Part shown: positions 15,503 through 26,507 of the stretch, piece after piece
Layout: each line of letters opens with the position of its first letter
How positions within the stretch are numbered: position 1 is the stretch's first letter
Assembly: GCF_004300825.1 (NCBI RefSeq)
Contig: NZ_CP036250.1
Span: 1,612,001 to 1,676,000 of the forward strand
DNA: 64,000 nt
Source of the DNA: Egicoccus halophilus
Lineage (GTDB): Bacteria; Actinomycetota; Nitriliruptoria; Nitriliruptorales; Nitriliruptoraceae
Direction of reading: 5' to 3'
Position numbers and translations under genes: made by a program
Notes under the pieces: generated by a model
Database searches by the model: none
Seen by the model: the letters and a program-made list of their open reading frames with translations, nothing else
What the model was told of the DNA's origin: nothing

Positions 15503-15542
15503 ACGTGCGTCCTGGTCCGAACCACCGGTCCAGGACGCACGT
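15503..15542. terminator. strong hairpin downstream of fadB
   Basis: ACGTGCGTCCTGG (15503-15515) pairs perfectly with CCAGGACGCACGT (15530-15542), with a 14-base loop that itself can partly pair. There is no T-run, as is usual in high-GC genomes. It may end fadB transcription, but it is also the first member of the palindrome field that surrounds the next gene. Confidence 0.55.
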
Positions 15543-15752
15543 GCGTCGGGGGCGCCTCCGTGCGTGCGTCCTGGTCCGGATCTCGCCGGCCGGGGACGCA
15601 CGTGCGTCGGGCCTGGCGCCTTCGGGGGCCTGGCGCCTTCGGGGGCCCTGGCGCCTTCGGGGGCCTGGCGCCTTCGGGGGCCCTGGCGCCTTCGGTGGGG
15701 CCTCGTTGCGCTTTCCGGGTCAGCGCCCGTTGCGCTTTCCGGGTCAGCGCCC
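15503..15752. repeat. palindrome and tandem-repeat field, 3' side of DUF559 gene
   Basis: The noncoding stretch 15426-15743 holds three repeat types. (1) The 14-base palindrome GACGCACGTGCGTC at 15534-15547 and 15595-15608, with a half-copy at 15503. (2) Five tandem copies of CTGGCGCCTTCGGGGGC starting at 15613, 15630, 15648, 15665 and 15683 (alternating 17/18-base spacing). (3) Two 24-base copies starting GTTGCGCTTTCCGGGTC at 15705 and 15729, the second running into the 3' end of the DUF559 gene. No gene is supported in this stretch. Confidence 0.85.
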
Positions 15753-16664
15753 GCCGGCGCGACGCGTGGCACGCAGCTCGAGGCACGTGCGGAGCACCGC
15801 GACGAACTCCGGCCACTCGCGGTGGAACATCTCCCACGTCAGCCCGAGCACGAGCCACTGGTCGCCGGCCGCGGCGATGGCGTTCTGCCGCTCCACGTCA
15901 CGCTTCAGTTGTGCCGCGCTGGCGTGGAAGCTGAACCCGAGGCACTCGACGGCCACACCCTGTGCGAGCCACACGAGATCGAAGAACCGGGGCCCGAGGT
16001 GCGTCTTTACCGCCTCCTGCTGACGGTCGGGCGCCAGTCCCTCCTCGCGCAGTCGTCCGACGGCGTGGAACTCGAAGCCCGAGTCCGAGCCGTCGTCCTG
16101 CAACTCCGAGACGAGTGCAGACAGTCGGCGACGCCCGGGGAACCGTTGGTCGCGCTCGAGCAGCGCGGCGACCTCGGCGAGGATCGCCCGGTCCCGGACC
16201 CGCGCGTCGATGACGAGGTTGCGCAAGCGCGCCGCGTCGGCACGCCGGGCCAGCTCGCGCAGCATCCGAGCGGCCGTGACCACCGCGACGCCATCGATCG
16301 TCGTGCGGTCCACGGCCGGCAGCGACCGCGTCCGACGTGCGACCAGCTGTTGGGTGGTGATGTCGCCGACACCGACCGGACGCAGCAGTTCGACGCGGGC
16401 GGGGGCGGCTCGGAGCAGGCCGTGGAGGTTCGCTGCCGTCCAGCCCGTGGCGACGCTGCCCGCCACGCCCCGCGTCGCACCGTAGGCACGGGCCACCCCG
16501 GAGGCCGGAGCTCCGGGCAGCAACCAGACGCCGGGGGCCACCATCCGCCATCGCTCACGCTGCGCCTTCGACTGCAGCGTCTGCCGCGGGATCCCGGCCA
16601 TCGGCGCGTCCGCGAGACACACGACCCCGTGCCGCGCGATCCGGTGCAGTTCGTACCATCCCAT
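15744..16664 (-). CDS. AbiEi-like / DUF559 (Vsr-fold endonuclease-like) protein
   Basis: 306-residue protein of a family common in actinobacteria. The N-terminal part (about 1-110; ELHRIARHGVVCLADAPMAGI, RWRMVAPGVWLLPGAP) resembles the AbiEi-type antitoxin winged helix. The C-terminal part (about 205-300) is DUF559-like, related to very-short-patch-repair endonucleases: FFDLVWLAQGVAVECLGFSFH carries the expected acidic residue, followed by KRDVERQNAIAAAGDQWLVLGLTW. Molecular function is not established; no AbiEii toxin partner is present. The ATG at 16664 begins the conserved region; the longer upstream frame is repeat DNA. The gene sits alone, flanked on both sides by the ACGCACGTGCGT palindromes. 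Confidence 0.8.
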   Translation of the reverse strand: MGWYELHRIARHGVVCLADAPMAGIPRQTLQSKAQRERWRMVAPGVWLLPGAPASGVARAYGATRGVAGSVATGWTAANLHGLLRAAPARVELLRPVGVGDITTQQLVARRTRSLPAVDRTTIDGVAVVTAARMLRELARRADAARLRNLVIDARVRDRAILAEVAALLERDQRFPGRRRLSALVSELQDDGSDSGFEFHAVGRLREEGLAPDRQQEAVKTHLGPRFFDLVWLAQGVAVECLGFSFHASAAQLKRDVERQNAIAAAGDQWLVLGLTWEMFHREWPEFVAVLRTCLELRATRRAGGR

Positions 16665-16757: not shown

Positions 16758-16870
16758 GACGCACGTGCGTCGAAGCACGGGTCCGTGCGGATGAGGACGC
16801 ACGTGCGGATCGTCGGTCCACGCACGTGCGTCGAAGGACGGGTCCGTGCGGATGAGGACGCACGTGCGTC
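16758..16870. repeat. palindrome field with 61-base direct repeat, 5' side of DUF559 gene
   Basis: Within the gap 16665-17036, GACGCACGTGCGTC occurs perfectly at 16758-16771 and 16857-16870 and with end mismatches at 16796-16809 and 16819-16832. A longer unit (16761-16807) is repeated at 16822-16868 with one mismatch, a 61-base period that includes GGGTCCGTGCGGATGAGG. The palindrome is the same one found on the other side of the DUF559 gene. Apart from these and the gltA terminator hairpin I see no gene in the gap. Confidence 0.85.
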
Positions 16871-17036: not shown

Positions 17037-18329
<1,293 letters not shown>

Positions 18330-18453
18330 CGGGCAGGGGTCTCCTGGTAGGTCGAGAGCGGCGGGGATCACCCCCGAAACTAGCGGGCGCGTCGCCCGAC
18401 CGCGTTCTCGGGGCTCGGCCGGGGAGGCAGACGCCGACGGTGGTCCGGGCGCG

Positions 18454-18951
18454 TCAGGCCGAGCCGGTGTCCCGCGCGCGCTCGGCGATGCGCTGCAGCG
18501 CGGCGGCGAGCACGCGGGCCTCGTCCTCGTCGAGCAGGGACGTGAAGTGCTCGTCGACCCCCCGCAGGTGCGTCGGAGCGGTCGCCTTGAGCGTGGCGAA
18601 CCCGTGCTCGGTCAGCTCCGCGAAGGTGCCGCGACGGTCGTCGGGGCAGGCCGCCCGTCGCACGAGCCCCTCCGACTCCATGCGATCGACCAGCCGGGTC
18701 AGGCCGCTCTTGGACAGCAGCACCGCCTCGGCGAGCTCCTGCATGCGCAGGCGCTGGTCGTCCGCCTCCTGCAGGTGCACCAGCACGTCGTACCAGGCCA
18801 GCGGCAGGTCCACCTCGTCACGCAACTCGCGGGCGAGGACCTCGGTCACGCGCGCGTGCGCCTCGAGGAACGCCCGCCAGGCCGCCAGGCGTTCGGCGGG
18901 GATCCGGCCCGGGCGGTCGGTCGGGGAGGTCGCTGCGGTGCTCGTGCTCAT
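18454..18951 (-). CDS. MarR-family transcriptional regulator
   Basis: 165-residue winged-helix repressor, dimeric DNA-binding protein usually responding to phenolics, oxidants or lipids. LAWYDVLVHLQEADDQRLRMQELAEAVLLSKSGLTRLVDRMESEGLVRR, read across about 50-100, is the classic MarR HTH and recognition helix; the wing follows with DDRRGTFAELTEHG. The ATG at 18951 is supported by a TACGCT -10-like hexamer eight bases upstream (minus strand 18960-18965), so the mRNA is probably leaderless. No obvious target gene is next to it. Confidence 0.92.
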   Translation of the reverse strand: MSTSTAATSPTDRPGRIPAERLAAWRAFLEAHARVTEVLARELRDEVDLPLAWYDVLVHLQEADDQRLRMQELAEAVLLSKSGLTRLVDRMESEGLVRRAACPDDRRGTFAELTEHGFATLKATAPTHLRGVDEHFTSLLDEDEARVLAAALQRIAERARDTGSA

Positions 18952-18959
18952 GGCGGCGC

Positions 18960-18965
18960 AGCGTA
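18960..18965 (-). promoter_or_regulatory. -10 element (TACGCT) of leaderless MarR gene
   Basis: TACGCT on the minus strand, eight bases before the ATG at 18951. It fits the TANNNT -10 consensus of actinobacteria and leaves no room for a ribosome binding site. Confidence 0.5.
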
Positions 18966-19036
18966 CCCCGCGCCGCGGGGCGCGGTCCGCGAAGGCCGAC
19001 GCGACCGCGCCGATGTCCCGGCCCCCAGCATGCCGG

Positions 19037-19876
19037 TCAGCCGACCGTGTCGTCCGCTCCGGCGTCCTGGACCGTGACGGTGCCGGTGGCCCCGGACGGC
19101 TGACAGAGCGGGCACCAGTACACGAGGCGCTGCTGCTCACCGAGATGTCCCGACGCCACCGGGATCCCGCAGCGTCGACAGGGCTGGGCGCCGCGGCCGT
19201 ACACCCACAACGTCCCCGGTGGTGCGCCGGTCACGGTCGTGCGCTCGGCGGCGTCGAGGTTGGCGCGCAGCAGCCGGCCGGCCGTGGCGAACAGGGCGTC
19301 GACCACCGTGTCGGGCACCGTCCCGAGCACGGCGTGCGGGTCGACGCCGTGGAGGAACGCGACGTCGCAGCGGTAGACGTTGCCGATCCCGCACGCGACG
19401 GTCTGGTCGAGCAGTACCTCGCCGATCGCACGCGACGGGTCCTGGCGGGCGACGCGTTGGCGCACCTCGTCGAGGTCGGGTGCGGGGTCGCACAGGTCCG
19501 GACCGAGCCGTCGCAGGGCGGGATGACGGCGCAGCCCGGACTGGTCGAGGATTTCGACGACCGGTGCGGCGAAGCACACCGCCACCGCACCGGGGACCGC
19601 CAGCACGACCCGGGCCGCCCGCGGCGACTTCCGCCACCGCTCACCCGGCCGGTAGACGTGCCACGAACCGGTCATGCGCTGATGGGTGTGCACGACCAGG
19701 CCGTCGGAGGTGGTGATGAGCAGGTGCTTGCCACGGGCCTCGACCCGTTCGACGGTCGCGCCGATCGCCGGTAGCGGCGGTCGGACACGCGGGACCTCGA
19801 CGCGGGTCAGCGGCTTGCCGACCAGCACCGGGCGCAGCGCCGCGGCCGTGCGATGAATCGTGTCTCCCTCGGGCAT
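19037..19876 (-). CDS. nei: endonuclease VIII-like DNA glycosylase (Fpg/Nei family)
   Basis: 279-residue base-excision repair enzyme that removes oxidised bases and nicks the abasic site. The N-terminus MPEGDTIHRTA has the catalytic Pro2 and Glu3; starting with PEGDTI rather than PELPEV marks the Nei rather than Fpg branch. The H2TH motif is in the centre (GEVLLDQTVACGIGNVYRCD, about 160-180). The C-terminal zinc finger CRRCGIPV...YWCPLC (about 238-262) carries four cysteines. The ATG at 19876 follows a TACGCT element six bases upstream, so it is leaderless. It lies downstream of, but is separated by hairpins from, the histone gene. Confidence 0.95.
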   Translation of the reverse strand: MPEGDTIHRTAAALRPVLVGKPLTRVEVPRVRPPLPAIGATVERVEARGKHLLITTSDGLVVHTHQRMTGSWHVYRPGERWRKSPRAARVVLAVPGAVAVCFAAPVVEILDQSGLRRHPALRRLGPDLCDPAPDLDEVRQRVARQDPSRAIGEVLLDQTVACGIGNVYRCDVAFLHGVDPHAVLGTVPDTVVDALFATAGRLLRANLDAAERTTVTGAPPGTLWVYGRGAQPCRRCGIPVASGHLGEQQRLVYWCPLCQPSGATGTVTVQDAGADDTVG

Positions 19877-19946: not shown

Positions 19947-19977
19947 GACGAGCCCCCGCACGCGGCGGGGGCTCGTC
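19947..19977 (-). terminator. 13-bp hairpin between histone and nei genes
   Basis: GACGAGCCCCCGC pairs perfectly with GCGGGGGCTCGTC around a five-base loop (ACGCG). It is the second of two hairpins downstream of the histone gene. Confidence 0.7.
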
Positions 19978-20008
19978 GGTGTCCGGTGGCCGGCGGAAGG
20001 CCGGCCGA

Positions 20009-20039
20009 CGGTGGGATGCGGCGTGAGCCGCTCCCACCG
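20009..20039 (-). terminator. 13-bp hairpin directly after histone stop
   Basis: CGGTGGGA-T-GCGGC / GCCGC-TCCCACCG with a GTGA tetraloop and one bulged T, starting ten bases past the histone stop codon. With the following hairpin it should insulate nei from histone transcription. Confidence 0.75.
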
Positions 20040-20048
20040 ACGCTGCTC

Positions 20049-20225
20049 TCAGAGGTCGTACGGACGCAGGGTGCCGCGGCCGTTCTCCTTGGCACGCGCA
20101 GCGGCGTCCTGGAGCAGCGCGTTGATCTTTTCGTTGAGCGCGTCGGGAAGGCTCGAGTCCATCCGCAGCTCGAGGCCCTTGACGGCCTCCTTCACCTTGC
20201 TCTGCACGATCAGCGATTCCGCCAT
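20049..20225 (-). CDS. bacterial histone-fold protein (DUF1931/HBb type)
   Basis: 58-residue basic protein that matches the bacterial single-histone-fold family (DUF1931; Bdellovibrio Bd0055 is a studied member). VQSKVKEAVKGLELRMDSS aligns with the first helix and loop, LPDALNEKINALLQDAAARAKENG with the long central helix, and GRGTLRPYDL with the C-terminal R-x-T-x-x-P-x-D-L signature that in histones packs loop 2 and helix 3. Bacterial histones dimerise and bend or coat DNA in the nucleoid. The ATG at 20225 has an AAGGAGA ribosome binding site at ideal spacing, and two strong hairpins follow the stop: features of a highly expressed small gene. It is separated from lhr by 118 bases. Confidence 0.85.
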   Translation of the reverse strand: MAESLIVQSKVKEAVKGLELRMDSSLPDALNEKINALLQDAAARAKENGRGTLRPYDL

Positions 20226-20343
20226 GACGGTCTCCTTCGGTGTGAATTTCGGGAGCGGACCGGCCGGGGACCATAGAACCCGTGCTGCACACAACGCCAG
20301 CACCCGACCCGCGCCGAAGGGGCCCGGCCACGCGACGGGCGGC

Positions 20344-23300
20344 TCAGGAACGACGCGTCAGACCCCGGTAGCCGACGGTGAAGCCGGCCTGCTCCAGGGC
20401 CGCGACCCACGTGGGCTGCTCGTGGACGGCGACGCCGTCCACCCGGGTGACCTCGAGCTTGCGCAGCCGGCCGCCGCTGACCAGCCACCCCAGGGCGGCG
20501 AGCCATCGCTGCGGTGGCTGCGGATGGCCGAAGGTGGCCAGGCTGCGCCCGCCGCGCTCGATGAACAGCGCCGGTCGACCGTCCACGAGGAGCACGAACG
20601 CGCCGGCCGCCCGCGCGGGTCGCCCCGGGCTGTCGGGCCAGGGCAACGCGGCGCCGTAGGGCTGGGCCGGGTCGGTGGCGGCGAGAAGCACGACCCGGCC
20701 CTCGCCACGGTCGGCGGCGTCGACGTACAGCTCCTCCTCGGGCACCTCCCGATGTCCGCGAAGGCGGTCCATCGCCCCGGAAACGGCGAATTGCGCCGCT
20801 CCGAGGCCGGAGACGACGTAGCCGCGCCGGACCTGACCGGCCTCCTCCATCGCCTTGAGCACCGGATAGACCGCACTGAACCCGCCAACGATCGACTCGA
20901 CACGCAGCGCCTCCCGGGTGAGCACCCCGTGGCGCTCGAGCAGCTGCTCGGCGAGCGCATGGGTGCGCTCGGTCCGGGTCGGGGCGGGGGTGAGCAGGTC
21001 CCGGGTCAGCGACCAGCGCCCCTGGGCCGACGGCGGTCCCAGGCGGGTGAGCCGTCCCGGACGTGGGCGGCCACCCCGCCCGCCGGTACCACCGCGCCGC
21101 GGCGCCCCCAGGGCACGGACCGGCGCGTAGGTGTCGTTGGTGACCTCGCCGGCCCACACGAGGTCCCACAGGGCGGCCAACACGAGATCCTGGTCGGCGA
21201 CCCCCGAGGCGGCGAACAACTCGGGCCAGAACGACGCACCCCGCTGCGCGAGGTGCGCACGCAGGGCGTCGTGCACGTCGCCCTCGGGCGGTTCGCCGAC
21301 CGGTTCGGGTGCCAGCAGCGCCACCTGGTCACGGAAGCACAGCACCACCCGTCCGTCGCTGGCACCGAGCGGTTCGACCCCCAGCCACACCACCTCACCG
21401 GCGGCCACGAGCTGGTCGAGGTCACTGGCCCGGTAGCCATCGAGGCGGGCCGGCAGCACGTCGGCCTCGAGCACCGACGCCGGCACCGGCACCCCCTGCA
21501 GCTGCCCGACCGTCTCCACCAGCGCGTCGAGTCCGCGTCGCGAGCCGCCCGACGCCGCCCGCACCTGCTGCCACACGGGCAGGAACCGGCCCAGCGCCCC
21601 GGCGTCGACCGGCTCGACCTCGGCCCGCAGCGCCGCGAGCGAGCGTCGCTTGAGCCGGCGCAGCACCTCGCGGTCGACCCACTCACGCTGCACGCCCCCC
21701 GGTCGGAACTCGCCATGCAGGACCCGGTCCTGGCGCTCCAGCCAGCGCAGGGTCGCCTCGACCCGTTCGACCGGGAGCGTCAGCCGGGCCGCGCACTCAC
21801 CGATGGGGAACGGGCCGTGGGTGCGGGCGTAGCGGGCGACGAGGTCGCCGAGCGGGTCGTCGACGGGGTCGGTGAAGGCCGCGGGCAGGCCCGGCGGCAG
21901 GGCCACGCCGATCGCGTCGCGCAGCCGGCTCGCGTCCTCGGCGGCGGCGTAGCGCACCTCGCCGCCGAGGCGGACCTCGATGGCGCGGCGCTCGGTCAGC
22001 AGCTGCTCCAGCCAGCCGGTCGGGTCCTCGACGGCCCGCTCGGCGAGCTCGGCCGCGGTCAGCTCGCCCAGTCGGCGCAGCACGTCGTGCAGTTCGTCGG
22101 CGTCCCGGGCCCGACGGTCGAGGCCCGCCTCGACCTCGCCCACCCCGGCGGGGGCGTCCAGCGGCGCGAGATGCTGGAGCTCGCGCTCGAGGGCGGCAAG
22201 CACGTCGGCGTCGAGCAGCTCGCGCAACTCGTCGCCGCCGAGCAGTTCACGCAGCAGATCGGCGTCCAACGCCAGTGCCGCCGCGCGACGCTCGGCCAGC
22301 GGTGCGTCGTACTCGTACATGTACTGCCCGACCCAGCCGAACAGCAGCGACTGGGCGAACGGGGACGCCGAGGGGGTCTCGACGGTGACCAGGCGCACCT
22401 TGCGCGCCCGCAGGTCGCGCAGCAGGTCGCGCAGTCCGGGCAGGTCGAACACGTCCTGCAGACACTCGCGCGTGGCCTCGAGCAGGATCGGGAAGCTCGG
22501 GTAGCGCGAGGCGACCTGGAGCAGGTCGGCGGCGCGCTGGCGTTGCTGCCACAGGGCCGTGCGCTGGCCCGGGCGGCGCTTGGGCAGCAGCAGCGCCCGG
22601 CCGGCGGCCTCGCGGAACACGGTCGTGAACAGGGCCGTGCCGGCGAGCTGGTCCACGACCAGCGACTCGACCTCGTCGGGGTCGATCAGCAGCTCCTCGA
22701 GAGGAAGCTCCTCCTCCGCCTCCTGCAGTCGCACGACGATCCCGTCGTCGGCCCACAGCATCTCCGGATCGAGTCCGACCGCACGCAGGCGGCGTTCGAT
22801 CGCCATCGCCCACGGCGCGTGGACCTGCGCCCCGAACGGCGAGAGCAGGCACACCCGCCAGTCGCCGAGCTCGTCGCGGAAGCGCTCGACGACGATCGTC
22901 CGGTCGTCGGGCAGCGCGCCGGTGACCTGTGCCTGCTCCTCGAGGTAGGCCACGAGGTTGTCGGCCGCCCACGGGTCGAGGTCGGCCTGCTCGCGCAGCC
23001 GGGCCACCTCGGCGTCGCGGTCGTCGCCGGCGGCGGCGTGGACCTCGCGGTGGAAGGTGCCGATGGCCCGGCCGAGCTCGAGCGGCCGCCCGGGGCCGTC
23101 ACCGTGCCAGAACGGCAGCTTGCCGGGCTCACCGGGCGCGGGGGTGACCACGACCCGCTCGTGGGTGATGTCCTCGATGCGCCAGGTCGAGGCGCCGAGC
23201 ACGAACGTCTCGCCGGGCCGCGACTCGTGGACCATCTCCTCGTCGAGCTCGCCGACCCGCGTGCCGTCGGGCAGGAACACGCCGAACAGGCCCCGGTCGG

Positions 23301-25065
23301 GGATGGTCCCCGGGTTGGTGACCGCCAGGCGCTGCGCGCCGGCGCGGCCCCGCACCGTCCCCGCCACGCGGTCCCACACCAGCCGGGGTCGCAGCTCGCT
23401 GAACTCGTCGGACGGGTAGCGGCCCGCGAGCAGGTCGAGCACGGCGAACAGCACCTCGTCGGCCAACTCGGCGAACGGCGCCGCCCGGCGCACGACCTCG
23501 GCGAGGTCCTCGATCGTCCACTCCTCGAGCGCGACCATCGCCACGACCTGCTGGGCGAGCACGTCGAGCGGGTTGCGCGGGTAGCGGGTCGACTCGATCT
23601 CGCCCGCGTGCATGCGCTGCACGACGACGGCGGTCTCGACCAGGTCCCCGCGGTACTTGGGGAACAGCACCCCGCGCGAGGGCTCGCCGACCTGGTGGCC
23701 GGCACGGCCGATGCGCTGCAGGCCGCGGCTGACCGCACCGGGGGAGGCGACCTGCACGACCAGGTCGACCGCGCCCATGTCGATGCCGAGCTCCAGCGAG
23801 GAGGTCGCGACGAGTCCGCGCAGCCGCCCGGACTTGAGCTCGTCCTCGATGGCGAGGCGCCGCTCGCGTGACAGCGAGCCGTGGTGGGCCTTGACCAGCT
23901 CGGGCGGTGGGGCGTCGCGGTCCCGCCCGTAGTCGTCGAGTGCCGCCTCGAGCTCCGCTCCCTGCAGGCCCTGCGCCCGCAGACTCGCCTCGTGCTCACG
24001 CAGGGCGTGCAGCTCGTTGAGCTTGGCGGCCAGGCGTTCGGCGAGCCGGCGGGCGTTGACGAAGATCAGCGTCGATCGGTGCTCGAGCACGAAGTCGAGC
24101 AGCCGTGGGTGCACCGCCGGCCAGATCGAGCGTCGCGCCGGCCCGGCCGCGGCGGGACCGCCGGACAGCGGCAGCGCGTCCTCGCTCGGCAGCTCCGAGC
24201 CGAGGTCGCCCATGTCCTCGACCGGGACGACGACCTGCAACTCCAGTGGCTTGCGCACCCCGGCGTCGACGATCGTCACCGGCCGTGGGCGCCCCTGCTC
24301 CTGCCCGCCGAGGAACCGGGCGACCTCGTCGAGCGGTCGTTGCGTGGCCGACAGCGCCACCCGCTGCGGCGCGGGCCGCGGTGCCTGGTCGGGTTCGAGC
24401 CCGCCGTGGCGGACCTCGTGCTCGAGCCGTTCGAGGCTGAGCGCGAGGTGGCTGCCGCGCTTGGTGGGTGCGAGCGCGTGGATCTCGTCGATGATGACGG
24501 TCTCGACGGAACGCAGCGTCTCGCGTGCCCGCGACGTCAGCATCAGGTACAGCGACTCGGGCGTGGTGATCAACACGTCCGGCGGGGTGCGGCGCAGGCG
24601 TTCGCGCTCGCTCGCGGGTGTGTCCCCGGTCCGCACGCCGACCTCGGGCCGGTGCACCGCCGTCGCGGCGTCCCCGCCCCGGCCACCGTGCCCGAGCCGC
24701 TCGGCCGCGAGGCGGATGCCCTCGATCGGGGCCCGCAGGTTGCGGTCGACGTCGACGGCCAGGGCCCGCAGCGGGGAGACGTACACCACCCGCAGCCGTT
24801 GGTCCTTGGCCGGCACCGGCGCGGTCATGAGCCGGTCGATCGCCCACAGGAACGCGGTCAGCGTCTTGCCCGAGCCGGTCGGCGCGAGGATCAGGGTGTG
24901 CTCGCCCGCCGCGATCGCCGGCCAGCCCTGGACCTGCGCGCCGGTCGGCGCCGCGAAGGTGGTCGCGAACCACGTGCGCACCGGCGGGCTGAAGCGGGAC
25001 AGGACCGCGTCGGCGTCGTCGACCGGGTCGTCGCGCGGGCGGTCTGCGGGCTTCGGGTCGCTCAT
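20344..25065 (-). CDS. lhr: Lhr-type superfamily 2 DNA helicase
   Basis: 1573-residue ATP-dependent 3'-5' helicase involved in DNA repair; length matches long Lhr proteins (E. coli 1538). The helicase core (about 25-420) shows Walker A LAPTGSGKT, TTPESLY, DEIH box (VIIDEIHAL), motif III LSATQRP, and motifs V/VI in VATSSLELGIDMGAVDLVVQ and LQRIGRAGHQ. The Lhr winged helix and beta-barrel follow (about 420-860). The large C-terminal Lhr-CTD continues with FAVSGAMDRLRG, RLRKLEVTRVDG and a short basic tail. The ATG at 25065 has a TAGCGT -10 seven bases upstream, so it is leaderless. The IS110 element lies immediately upstream and may have replaced the upstream promoter region. Confidence 0.96.
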   Translation of the reverse strand: MSDPKPADRPRDDPVDDADAVLSRFSPPVRTWFATTFAAPTGAQVQGWPAIAAGEHTLILAPTGSGKTLTAFLWAIDRLMTAPVPAKDQRLRVVYVSPLRALAVDVDRNLRAPIEGIRLAAERLGHGGRGGDAATAVHRPEVGVRTGDTPASERERLRRTPPDVLITTPESLYLMLTSRARETLRSVETVIIDEIHALAPTKRGSHLALSLERLEHEVRHGGLEPDQAPRPAPQRVALSATQRPLDEVARFLGGQEQGRPRPVTIVDAGVRKPLELQVVVPVEDMGDLGSELPSEDALPLSGGPAAAGPARRSIWPAVHPRLLDFVLEHRSTLIFVNARRLAERLAAKLNELHALREHEASLRAQGLQGAELEAALDDYGRDRDAPPPELVKAHHGSLSRERRLAIEDELKSGRLRGLVATSSLELGIDMGAVDLVVQVASPGAVSRGLQRIGRAGHQVGEPSRGVLFPKYRGDLVETAVVVQRMHAGEIESTRYPRNPLDVLAQQVVAMVALEEWTIEDLAEVVRRAAPFAELADEVLFAVLDLLAGRYPSDEFSELRPRLVWDRVAGTVRGRAGAQRLAVTNPGTIPDRGLFGVFLPDGTRVGELDEEMVHESRPGETFVLGASTWRIEDITHERVVVTPAPGEPGKLPFWHGDGPGRPLELGRAIGTFHREVHAAAGDDRDAEVARLREQADLDPWAADNLVAYLEEQAQVTGALPDDRTIVVERFRDELGDWRVCLLSPFGAQVHAPWAMAIERRLRAVGLDPEMLWADDGIVVRLQEAEEELPLEELLIDPDEVESLVVDQLAGTALFTTVFREAAGRALLLPKRRPGQRTALWQQRQRAADLLQVASRYPSFPILLEATRECLQDVFDLPGLRDLLRDLRARKVRLVTVETPSASPFAQSLLFGWVGQYMYEYDAPLAERRAAALALDADLLRELLGGDELRELLDADVLAALERELQHLAPLDAPAGVGEVEAGLDRRARDADELHDVLRRLGELTAAELAERAVEDPTGWLEQLLTERRAIEVRLGGEVRYAAAEDASRLRDAIGVALPPGLPAAFTDPVDDPLGDLVARYARTHGPFPIGECAARLTLPVERVEATLRWLERQDRVLHGEFRPGGVQREWVDREVLRRLKRRSLAALRAEVEPVDAGALGRFLPVWQQVRAASGGSRRGLDALVETVGQLQGVPVPASVLEADVLPARLDGYRASDLDQLVAAGEVVWLGVEPLGASDGRVVLCFRDQVALLAPEPVGEPPEGDVHDALRAHLAQRGASFWPELFAASGVADQDLVLAALWDLVWAGEVTNDTYAPVRALGAPRRGGTGGRGGRPRPGRLTRLGPPSAQGRWSLTRDLLTPAPTRTERTHALAEQLLERHGVLTREALRVESIVGGFSAVYPVLKAMEEAGQVRRGYVVSGLGAAQFAVSGAMDRLRGHREVPEEELYVDAADRGEGRVVLLAATDPAQPYGAALPWPDSPGRPARAAGAFVLLVDGRPALFIERGGRSLATFGHPQPPQRWLAALGWLVSGGRLRKLEVTRVDGVAVHEQPTWVAALEQAGFTVGYRGLTRRS

Positions 25066-25289: not shown

Positions 25290-26507
25290 ATGGATGCGTT
25301 GTTCGTAGGACACGATTGGGCAGAGGATCATCACGACGTTCACCTGCAGGACCGCGAGGGTCGGCAGCTCGCGCAGGTGCGACTAGCTGACGGGGTCGAA
25401 GGGATCGCCAGGTTCCATGCCCTGATCGCCGAGCACGCCCAGGACCCGGCCAGCGTGGTGATCGCGACAGAGACCGACCGGGGCCTGTTCGTCGCCGCGC
25501 TGGTGGCTGCCGGCTACCGGGTGTTCGCGGTGAACCCGGTCTCGACCGCCGCCTACCGGACACGGCACTCGACCTCGGGTGCGAAGTCCGACCCCGGGGA
25601 CGCCAAGGTGCTAGCCGACCTGGCCCGCACCGATGTGCGCAACCACCGGCCCGTGGCCGGCGACAGCGAGCTCGCCGTCGCGGTCAAGGTGCTCGCACGG
25701 GCCCATCAGGGGCTGGTGTGGACCCGTCAGCGGCAGGCCAACCAGCTGCGCTCGACGTTGCGGGAGTTCTACCCCGCTGCACTCGAAGCGTTCGACGATC
25801 TGGCGTCGGGTGACGCGCTGGCGCTCTTGGCGGTTGCGTCGACGCCTGAGCAGGGCCGGCGGCTGTCACGATCCAAGATCGCCGCGGCACTCCGGCGTGG
25901 GGGCCGGCAACGCAACATCGACCGGCGCACCATCGAGATCCAGACCGCCCTGCGCGCCGAGCATCTCCACGCCCCCGCCATCGTCGCCGACACGATGGGC
26001 GAGGTGGTGTCCTCGCTGGTCGCGGTCATCGCCACGATCCAGACCCAGATCAGCCAGCTCGAACAGCAGTTGAACGAACGTTTTGAGGCGCACCCGGACG
26101 CCAAGATCATCCGTTCCCTGCCAGGACTGGGGATGATCCTCGGCGCCCGGGTGCTCGCAGAGTTCGGCGATGACCCGAACCGCTACGACACCGCGAAGTC
26201 TCGCAAGAACTACGCCGGCACGTCACCGATCACCAAAGCCTCCGGCAAACACCACGTCGTGCTCGCCCGCTACGCCCGCAACAAACGCCTGGCTGACGCC
26301 TGCTACCAGTGGGCCTTCTCCGCCATCACCGCCAGCCCCGGCGCACGCGCCTTCTACGACCAACGCCGCGCCGCGGGCGACACCCACCACCGCGCCCTGC
26401 GCGCCCTCGGCAACCGGCTCGTGGGCATCCTCCACGGCTGCCTACGCCACCACACCCTCTACGACGAACACATCGCCTGGGCACACCGGCTCACCCTGGC
26501 TGCTTGA
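25290..26507 (+). CDS. IS110-family transposase (DEDD recombinase)
   Basis: 405-residue RNA-guided recombinase. The N-terminal RuvC-like DEDD domain (about 1-165) begins FVGHDWAEDHHDVHL with the first Asp, has VVIATETDRGLFVAALVAAGY with the Glu, and ends near SGAKSDPGDAKVLADLAR with the paired Asp residues. A coiled coil (about 245-275; TIQTQISQLEQQLNERF) links to the C-terminal Transposase_20 domain, with SLPGLGMILGARVLAEFGD and the SRKNYAGTSPITKASGK segment that contains the catalytic serine region. All conserved blocks are in frame, so it looks functional. The ATG at 25290 follows GGGAGGA. Confidence 0.95.
   Translation: MDALFVGHDWAEDHHDVHLQDREGRQLAQVRLADGVEGIARFHALIAEHAQDPASVVIATETDRGLFVAALVAAGYRVFAVNPVSTAAYRTRHSTSGAKSDPGDAKVLADLARTDVRNHRPVAGDSELAVAVKVLARAHQGLVWTRQRQANQLRSTLREFYPAALEAFDDLASGDALALLAVASTPEQGRRLSRSKIAAALRRGGRQRNIDRRTIEIQTALRAEHLHAPAIVADTMGEVVSSLVAVIATIQTQISQLEQQLNERFEAHPDAKIIRSLPGLGMILGARVLAEFGDDPNRYDTAKSRKNYAGTSPITKASGKHHVVLARYARNKRLADACYQWAFSAITASPGARAFYDQRRAAGDTHHRALRALGNRLVGILHGCLRHHTLYDEHIAWAHRLTLAA

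Follow-up and report, generated by a model that had tools for sequence, protein, structure and literature searches.

A predicted single-fold histone encoded between lhr and nei in the actinobacterium Egicoccus halophilus

Introduction

Egicoccus halophilus is a salt-lake actinobacterium of the family Nitriliruptoraceae (class Nitriliruptoria). A stretch of 64,000 nucleotides of its genome, here called the window (assembly GCF_004300825.1, contig NZ_CP036250.1, positions 1,612,001 to 1,676,000), contains a 58-codon open reading frame. An earlier note, made from the letters alone, had read it as a single-domain histone of the DUF1931 family, unusual for a phylum said to rely on Lsr2 and HupB, and had proposed a profile search and a structure prediction. 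The locus raises the question of whether the reading frame encodes a histone, to which kind of histone the protein belongs, and what place such a protein may have in the nucleoid of this lineage.

Bacterial histones are described as rare and patchy, with examples from Bdellovibrionota, Spirochaetota, Planctomycetota, Myxococcota, Elusimicrobiota, and Chlamydiota; Actinomycetota are not named in the sections of the literature drawn on here (PMC12701072, PMC11390915, PMC10627809). According to the same sections, alpha3 histones comprise face-to-face (FtF) tetramers, bacterial dimers, and further types (PMC12701072, PMC11390915). FtF alpha3 histones have a single fold, a short alpha2, and an alpha3 of 3–4 residues, and their dimer–dimer contact retains the profile positions R48 and N52, both of which are missing from the bacterial dimers (PMC11390915). 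Histones of the FtF kind wrap DNA in some archaea and in Leptospira, about 60 bp in the case of HLp, and in Leptospira the FtF histone occurs in the absence of HU (PMC12701072). Bacterial FtF histones with charged tails have also been described (PMC11390915). A literature search covering titles and the opening lines of abstracts returned nothing on histones of Nitriliruptoria, whose genomes may be listed in supplementary tables, and a term search of PMC13088155 returned neither Actinomycetota nor Nitriliruptor.

The Gene and Its Flanking Signals

The histone gene occupies positions 20049–20225 of the minus strand, with an ATG at 20225–20223 and a stop codon at 20049, and encodes the protein MAESLIVQSKVKEAVKGLELRMDSSLPDALNEKINALLQDAAARAKENGRGTLRPYDL. 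A longer reading frame with a GTG start at 20303 is also possible; in relatives, conservation starts at the ATG at 20225. That this is a real gene is confirmed by the presence of the same tailless form in relatives, a low pN/pS, a Shine–Dalgarno sequence, and the retention of lhr and nei as neighbors. The gene is under strong purifying selection, with pN/pS values of 0.06–0.25 against nine relatives. The ribosome binding site already described in the earlier note is AAGGAG at 20232–20237 (minus strand), 6 nt before the ATG. It has equivalents upstream of the genes of relatives, and a purine-rich Shine–Dalgarno-like stretch, judged by eye, precedes the histone gene in 21 of 21 loci. No consensus sigma-70 promoter was found at the gene.

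The stacked hairpins reported after the stop codon are real, with a folding energy of −121 kcal/mol (z −5.3) for the entire stretch; they number three, however, and not two. On the minus strand, hairpin 1 lies at 20009–20039, hairpin 2 at 19988–20006, and hairpin 3 at 19947–19977. The last is the strongest, with 13 pairs, a GC-rich stem, and no U-tract, and is the probable transcript end. In all 21 loci, the 120 nt past the stop include a strong hairpin, with energies ranging from −27 to −47 kcal/mol; because this hairpin is kept despite diverging sequences, the histone gene most likely terminates its own transcript. No consensus terminator is called 3′ of the gene, since a T-run is absent.

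Predicted Fold and Closest Structures

An AlphaFold model of the monomer, built on a 69-row alignment, has a pLDDT of 92.8 and folds as a histone, with predicted helices alpha1 at residues 8–17, alpha2 at 26–47, and a one-turn alpha3 at 55–57. The short alpha2 and the three-residue alpha3 are those of FtF alpha3 histones. The top Foldseek match is HLp of Leptospira perolatii (9qt0, E 8.4e-5, rmsd 0.9 Å over 56 columns; 0.8–0.9 Å over the comparisons with HLp), followed by HTkC of Thermococcus kodakarensis and then by HBb of Bdellovibrio. VIA-align gave Z scores of 9.2 for HLp (9qt1), 8.4 for Bdellovibrio Bd0055 (8fvx), 8.3 for HTkC, and 6.3–6.4 for HMfA/HMfB. With phmmer against PDB sequences, the E-values were 1.9e-7 for HLp, 9.5e-6 for HTkC, and 0.03 for Bd0055; with the 69-row profile they were 1.9e-19, 2.3e-16, and 7e-13 for HLp, HTkC, and the Bdellovibrio histones, with archaeal histones next at 0.002–0.01. 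By sequence, profile, and Foldseek, the closest solved relatives are thus HLp, then HTkC, and then the Bdellovibrio histones, HTkC and Bd0055 being tied by VIA-align. The model and these matches support the reading of the 58-residue protein as a single histone fold.

The proposed membership of DUF1931 did not survive the profile search. DUF1931 (PF09123) is the sole Pfam match, at 17.4 bits (E 0.0053) against a gathering cut-off of 21.8 bits, and it covers 34 residues and 34 of the 138 profile positions. NCBIfam gave no match to the 58-residue protein, and the Pfam scan gave none to HU/IHF (PF00216). The DUF1931 proteins are pseudodimers, or doublets, described as lacking DNA-binding residues in the section of PMC12701072 drawn on here. 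They share the histone fold, and a portion of their profile is similar to the C-terminal region of our protein; they have two folds per chain, however, whereas ours has one. The score below the cut-off and the 58-residue single-fold length therefore rule out DUF1931 family identity. DUF1931 proper was found in 8 of 396 Actinomycetota genomes, none of them listed in the histone-bearing order. Absences from that family search are imperfect, because it omitted a two-fold chain in the genome G035 that scores 37.7 bits in a direct scan.

Relationship to FtF Histones

The residues that characterize the FtF profile, K16, R48, N52, R54, T56, and D61, correspond to K12, R44, N48, R50, T52, and D57 of the Egicoccus protein. 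In alignment A1, which was collected by similarity search and from which all invariance figures are taken, R44, N48, R50, T52, and D57 are invariant in 39 of 39 rows, and K12 is lysine in 31 and arginine in 8. A second alignment, A2, is biased for R44, N48, R50, and T52, since one of the two search patterns behind it itself contains these residues. R49, N53, R55, and D62 of HLp map onto R44, N48, R50, and D57, the R50–D57 clamp being invariant in all 39 rows, and the DNA-contact residues S14, K15, K17, K21, T57, and R59 of HLp are S9, K10, K12, K16, T52, and R54 here. HLp K54 and T56, also noted at DNA, are replaced by G49 and G51. The R44/N48/R50/D57 pattern, together with HLp and HTkC as nearest solved relatives, places the protein with the FtF alpha3 histones, as far as sequence and a predicted structure can tell.

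R21 is invariant in the 39 rows; HLp has M26 at that site, and arginine is also found there in HTkC and in several relatives from Myxococcota, Planctomycetota, and CPR. It aligns by a weak profile match (E 0.59) with the sprocket arginine R19 of HMfB, to which it may correspond. The sprocket arginine is described as not conserved in bacterial histones in the part of PMC10627809 drawn on here. The protein is close to neutral, with a pI of 6.2 and a net charge of 0, whereas the HLp core has a pI of 9.1 and HBb one of 9.25. Judged from sequence, this near neutrality would be the main oddity for a protein expected to bind DNA strongly.

Three solved histones serve for comparison. HLp (PDB 9QT0–9QT2) is 42–43% identical, has a single alpha3 fold, keeps R49/N53/R55/D62, and comes from a genome without HU, according to the sections of PMC12701072 drawn on here. 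It differs in phylum, in M26 instead of R21, in K54/T56 instead of G49/G51, in a pI of about 9 instead of 6.2, and in the location of its gene near smc and map, whereas ours lies between lhr and nei. HTkC, an archaeal FtF histone (PDB 9F2C; PMC11390915), shares the fold, a partial FtF signature, and the arginine at the R21 site; it is 38% identical, with extra residues before loop 1 and a glutamate at our N48. HBb, or Bd0055 (PDB 8CMP, 8FVX), is a dimeric histone described in PMC10627809 with the histone fold, short alpha2, truncated alpha3, and RD clamp that are also present here. It is, however, 31–34% identical and has serine and aspartate in place of the arginine and asparagine of the FtF tetramer interface. 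The bacterial-dimer class is defined by the absence of the R48/N52 equivalents, and both are present and invariant in our protein as R44 and N48.

The lhr–Histone–nei Locus

The upstream neighbor of the histone gene is lhr, encoding a large helicase-related protein (20344–25065; PF19306, PF08494), and the downstream neighbor is nei, encoding a MutM/Nei-type DNA glycosylase (19037–19876; PF01149, PF06831), as the earlier note had it. They are followed by a gene for a MarR-type regulator whose start is uncertain (18454–19140) and by a citrate synthase gene (17037–18371), both recognized by domain scan and by their recurrence at the loci of relatives. All of these genes are on the minus strand. 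The order lhr–histone–nei–marR–citrate synthase, on one strand, recurs in relatives and is complete in Salsipaludibacter (L075) and in G010 (L035). Among 29 relative loci, several of them on contigs that end early, lhr lies 5′ of the histone gene in 24 and nei 3′ of it in 21.

The histone gene thus stands among DNA-maintenance genes in the window, as had been stated; the link to repair that such a position might suggest is weak, because in three genomes of 1.7 Mb (loci L064, L067, and L074) the histone gene still lies next to marR and citrate synthase, and the locus contains neither lhr nor nei. Six genomes from sister families without the histone (G037, G050, G051, G052, G053, and G060) have lhr and nei side by side on the same strand; the lhr stop overlaps the nei start in G050 (TGATG), and 2 bases separate the two genes in G037. 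Since the pair is adjacent or overlapping where no histone is found, the histone gene most likely entered an already coupled lhr–nei pair.

Several other features of the surroundings were recorded. An IS110-family transposase gene (25290–26507, plus strand) lies just upstream of lhr, between it and a photolyase-like gene, and in the relatives L013 and L014 lhr adjoins that photolyase-like gene with about 90–160 bp between the matches. The palindrome GACGCACGTGCGTC occurs five times, once with a mismatch, at 15534–15547, 15595–15608, 16758–16771, 16819–16832, and 16857–16870. The copies form two clusters flanking a 352-residue minus-strand reading frame with an AbiEi-type domain, and five copies were found in 0 of 100 shuffles. 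Tandem repeats of 17/35 and 24 bp lie beside the same reading frame at 15609–15753.

Distribution of the Histone

The Egicoccus genome, a single contig of 3.98 Mb, contains one histone copy. Its relatives that carry names are Nitriliruptoraceae MAGs and Salsipaludibacter albus of the class Nitriliruptoria. The set used for the class comprises 61 genomes, of which 35 belong to the family Nitriliruptoraceae, one (G035) to a sister family that together with it forms the histone-bearing order, and 25 to other families, these being the ones returned by a relatives search of the class. The histone is present in 31 of the 35 family members, in the one sister-family genome, and in 0 of the 25 others; the tailless form occurs at 66–100% identity in 30 of the 35. 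The four family members without a match are 61–88% complete, and among those at least 90% complete the histone is found in 14 of 14, including three with small genomes of 1.7 Mb. Profile A1, applied to the 49 class genomes at least 80% complete, matched 24 of 26 in the order and 0 of 23 outside it.

Across the phylum, 396 genomes at least 90% complete were scanned, with 16 first-look candidates scored per genome. Matches were found in 15 genomes, which are all 15 members of the histone-bearing order in the set, and in 0 of the 381 others, in agreement with the view that histones are unusual in Actinomycetota. A pattern-limited search of 84,980 species genomes returned 80 loci, none of them by title from Actinomycetota outside the class, some titles reading just ‘Actinomycetota’. 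The closest non-actinobacterial loci are from DPANN archaea, at up to 52% identity, followed by Myxococcota and Planctomycetota. Recent transfer or contamination as the source of the gene is ruled out by synteny and by its persistence in 30 of the 35 family genomes. In a tree of 89 rows and 58 columns, from which the truncated row L077 had been removed, two changes are needed to account for the 39 Nitriliruptoria rows, of which a set of 30 groups at 94/77, and the tailed rows are unplaced; the tree does not separate an archaeal from a bacterial origin.

HU, Lsr2, and mIHF

Neither of the proteins on which Actinomycetota had been said to rely was found in Egicoccus: its genome gave no match to HU (PF00216), the domain of HupB, and Lsr2 was found in 0 of the 61 class genomes, Egicoccus included, with Corynebacterium glutamicum as positive control. 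HU matched in 1 of the 36 genomes of the order, compared with 23 of the 25 other class genomes. The single match lies in G024, which would otherwise be a counter-example with HU and no histone, on a 3.6-kb contig of 45% GC. Since five other sampled contigs of that genome are 68–74% GC, the HU contig is counted as a contaminant, and with it discounted no credible HU is present in any of the 36 genomes, the raw count staying at 1 of 36. mIHF was found in 54 of the 61 class genomes and in 31 of the 36, Egicoccus among them.

One family member, G015 (88% complete), has neither histone nor HU detected, and two further Actinomycetota genomes (G039, G059) likewise show neither. In the phylum set, HU is missing from 112 of the 381 genomes outside the order, none of which has a histone match, so HU can be lost in the absence of a histone. 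Histone gain and HU loss map to one branch and are one evolutionary event; the genome counts are therefore not independent. Fisher tests on the distribution treat related genomes as independent, and no weight is placed on them.

A Tailed Sister Histone

In addition to the tailless histone, many genomes of the family encode another, about 50% identical, whose fold is preceded by a tail of 50–79 residues made of KKTAA or KKAT repeats (L046, L047, L048, L049, L078–L082, L089, L096, and L112). The tail presumably resembles the lysine tail of HupB. The histone and HU do not have a fold in common. In AlphaFold models the tail is unstructured (block pLDDT 46–61) and the core is folded (86–92). The tailed gene adjoins a PAC2-family gene and a methyltransferase gene where compared, at a locus common to Nitriliruptoraceae and its sister family, so the tailed copy may be the older one. 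No tailed histone was found in the Egicoccus genome, which lost it by a clean deletion: 652 bp of the PAC2–methyltransferase locus of G002 correspond to 97 bp.

A KKTAA match at position 3928737 of the Egicoccus contig is not a tailed histone. It belongs to a topoisomerase I-like protein (L147), whose KKTAAKK tail is like those of the tailed histones. The sister-family genome G035 encodes, beside a tailed histone, a 125-residue chain with two alpha3 folds (L042:5986–6363, minus strand).

Discussion

The protein is a histone of a known kind in a new lineage. Our preferred reading is that it is probably a tetrameric FtF alpha3 histone that wraps DNA and takes HU's place as a general chromatin protein; its dimer and tetramer, the wrapping, its abundance, and the replacement of HU are what we infer, with Leptospira as precedent. 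Two 58-residue chains would form a handshake dimer, and two dimers would make up a ring-like tetramer by contacts of the alpha2 end, loop 2, and the short alpha3, with R44, N48, R50, and D57 involved. DNA would run along the rim of the tetramer, contacted by S9, K10, K12, and K16 of alpha1 and by R21, T52, and R54 of the loops. Wrapping would involve a short length of DNA, about 60 bp in the case of HLp, without preference for sequence, and the histone would act as a general nucleoid protein instead of HU and alongside mIHF.

The main competing explanation accepts the histone and separates it from the loss of HU: the protein would be minor or conditional, and mIHF or another, unknown protein would carry the nucleoid. 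The phylum genomes that lack both proteins and the retention of mIHF speak for it, as does the chance that a gain and a loss share one branch. Against it stand the presence of the histone in every family genome at least 90% complete, even the three of 1.7 Mb, the strong purifying selection, and the contrast in credible HU between the order (0 of 36) and the rest of the class; we regard it as rather unlikely. An HBb-like dimer that bends DNA, in place of a wrapping tetramer, would have the same monomer fold, and the Z scores of 8.1–8.4 to HBb chains in VIA-align, obtained with a predicted model, are compatible with it. This is improbable, given that R44 and N48 are invariant at positions where the bacterial dimers have neither residue, according to the part of PMC11390915 drawn on here, and that the sequence is more similar to HLp and HTkC than to HBb.

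Slightly less probable again is that the protein, despite its histone fold, has no part in packaging DNA and serves, for example, as an accessory of Lhr or of the glycosylase in repair. Its gene's location, with lhr on one side, nei on the other, and all three on the same strand, and the net charge of zero would suit such a role; the small genomes that keep the histone without either neighbor, the histone-less sisters with lhr and nei side by side, and the retained DNA-contact lysines of alpha1 argue against it. That the protein belongs to the DUF1931 pseudodimers is very improbable: the sole Pfam match and the name of HLp in the PDB, ‘DUF1931 domain-containing protein’, would point there, and the sub-threshold score, the partial coverage of the profile, and the single short fold point away.

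Beyond the preferred reading of an FtF histone in place of HU, a wider scenario is possible, which we hold as doubtful. In the order as a whole, nucleosome-like chromatin may have taken over from HU/HupB, with an FtF histone gained on the stem and HU lost. The ancestral copy would have been tailed, its long lysine tail being like that of HupB or H1, and a tailless copy would later have come to lie between lhr and nei. Chains with and without tails may mix in one tetramer, the dosage of tails tuning compaction, and Egicoccus would be left with one near-neutral histone and mIHF.

With a histone kept throughout and HU not detectable, this culturable lineage of actinobacteria would be a second case beside Leptospira in which a histone apparently stands in for HU, and its close HU-bearing sister lineages offer a comparison. 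One can thereby test whether HU is replaceable by a histone in a bacterium, what effect this has on supercoiling, and how a lysine tail on a histone compares with that of HupB.
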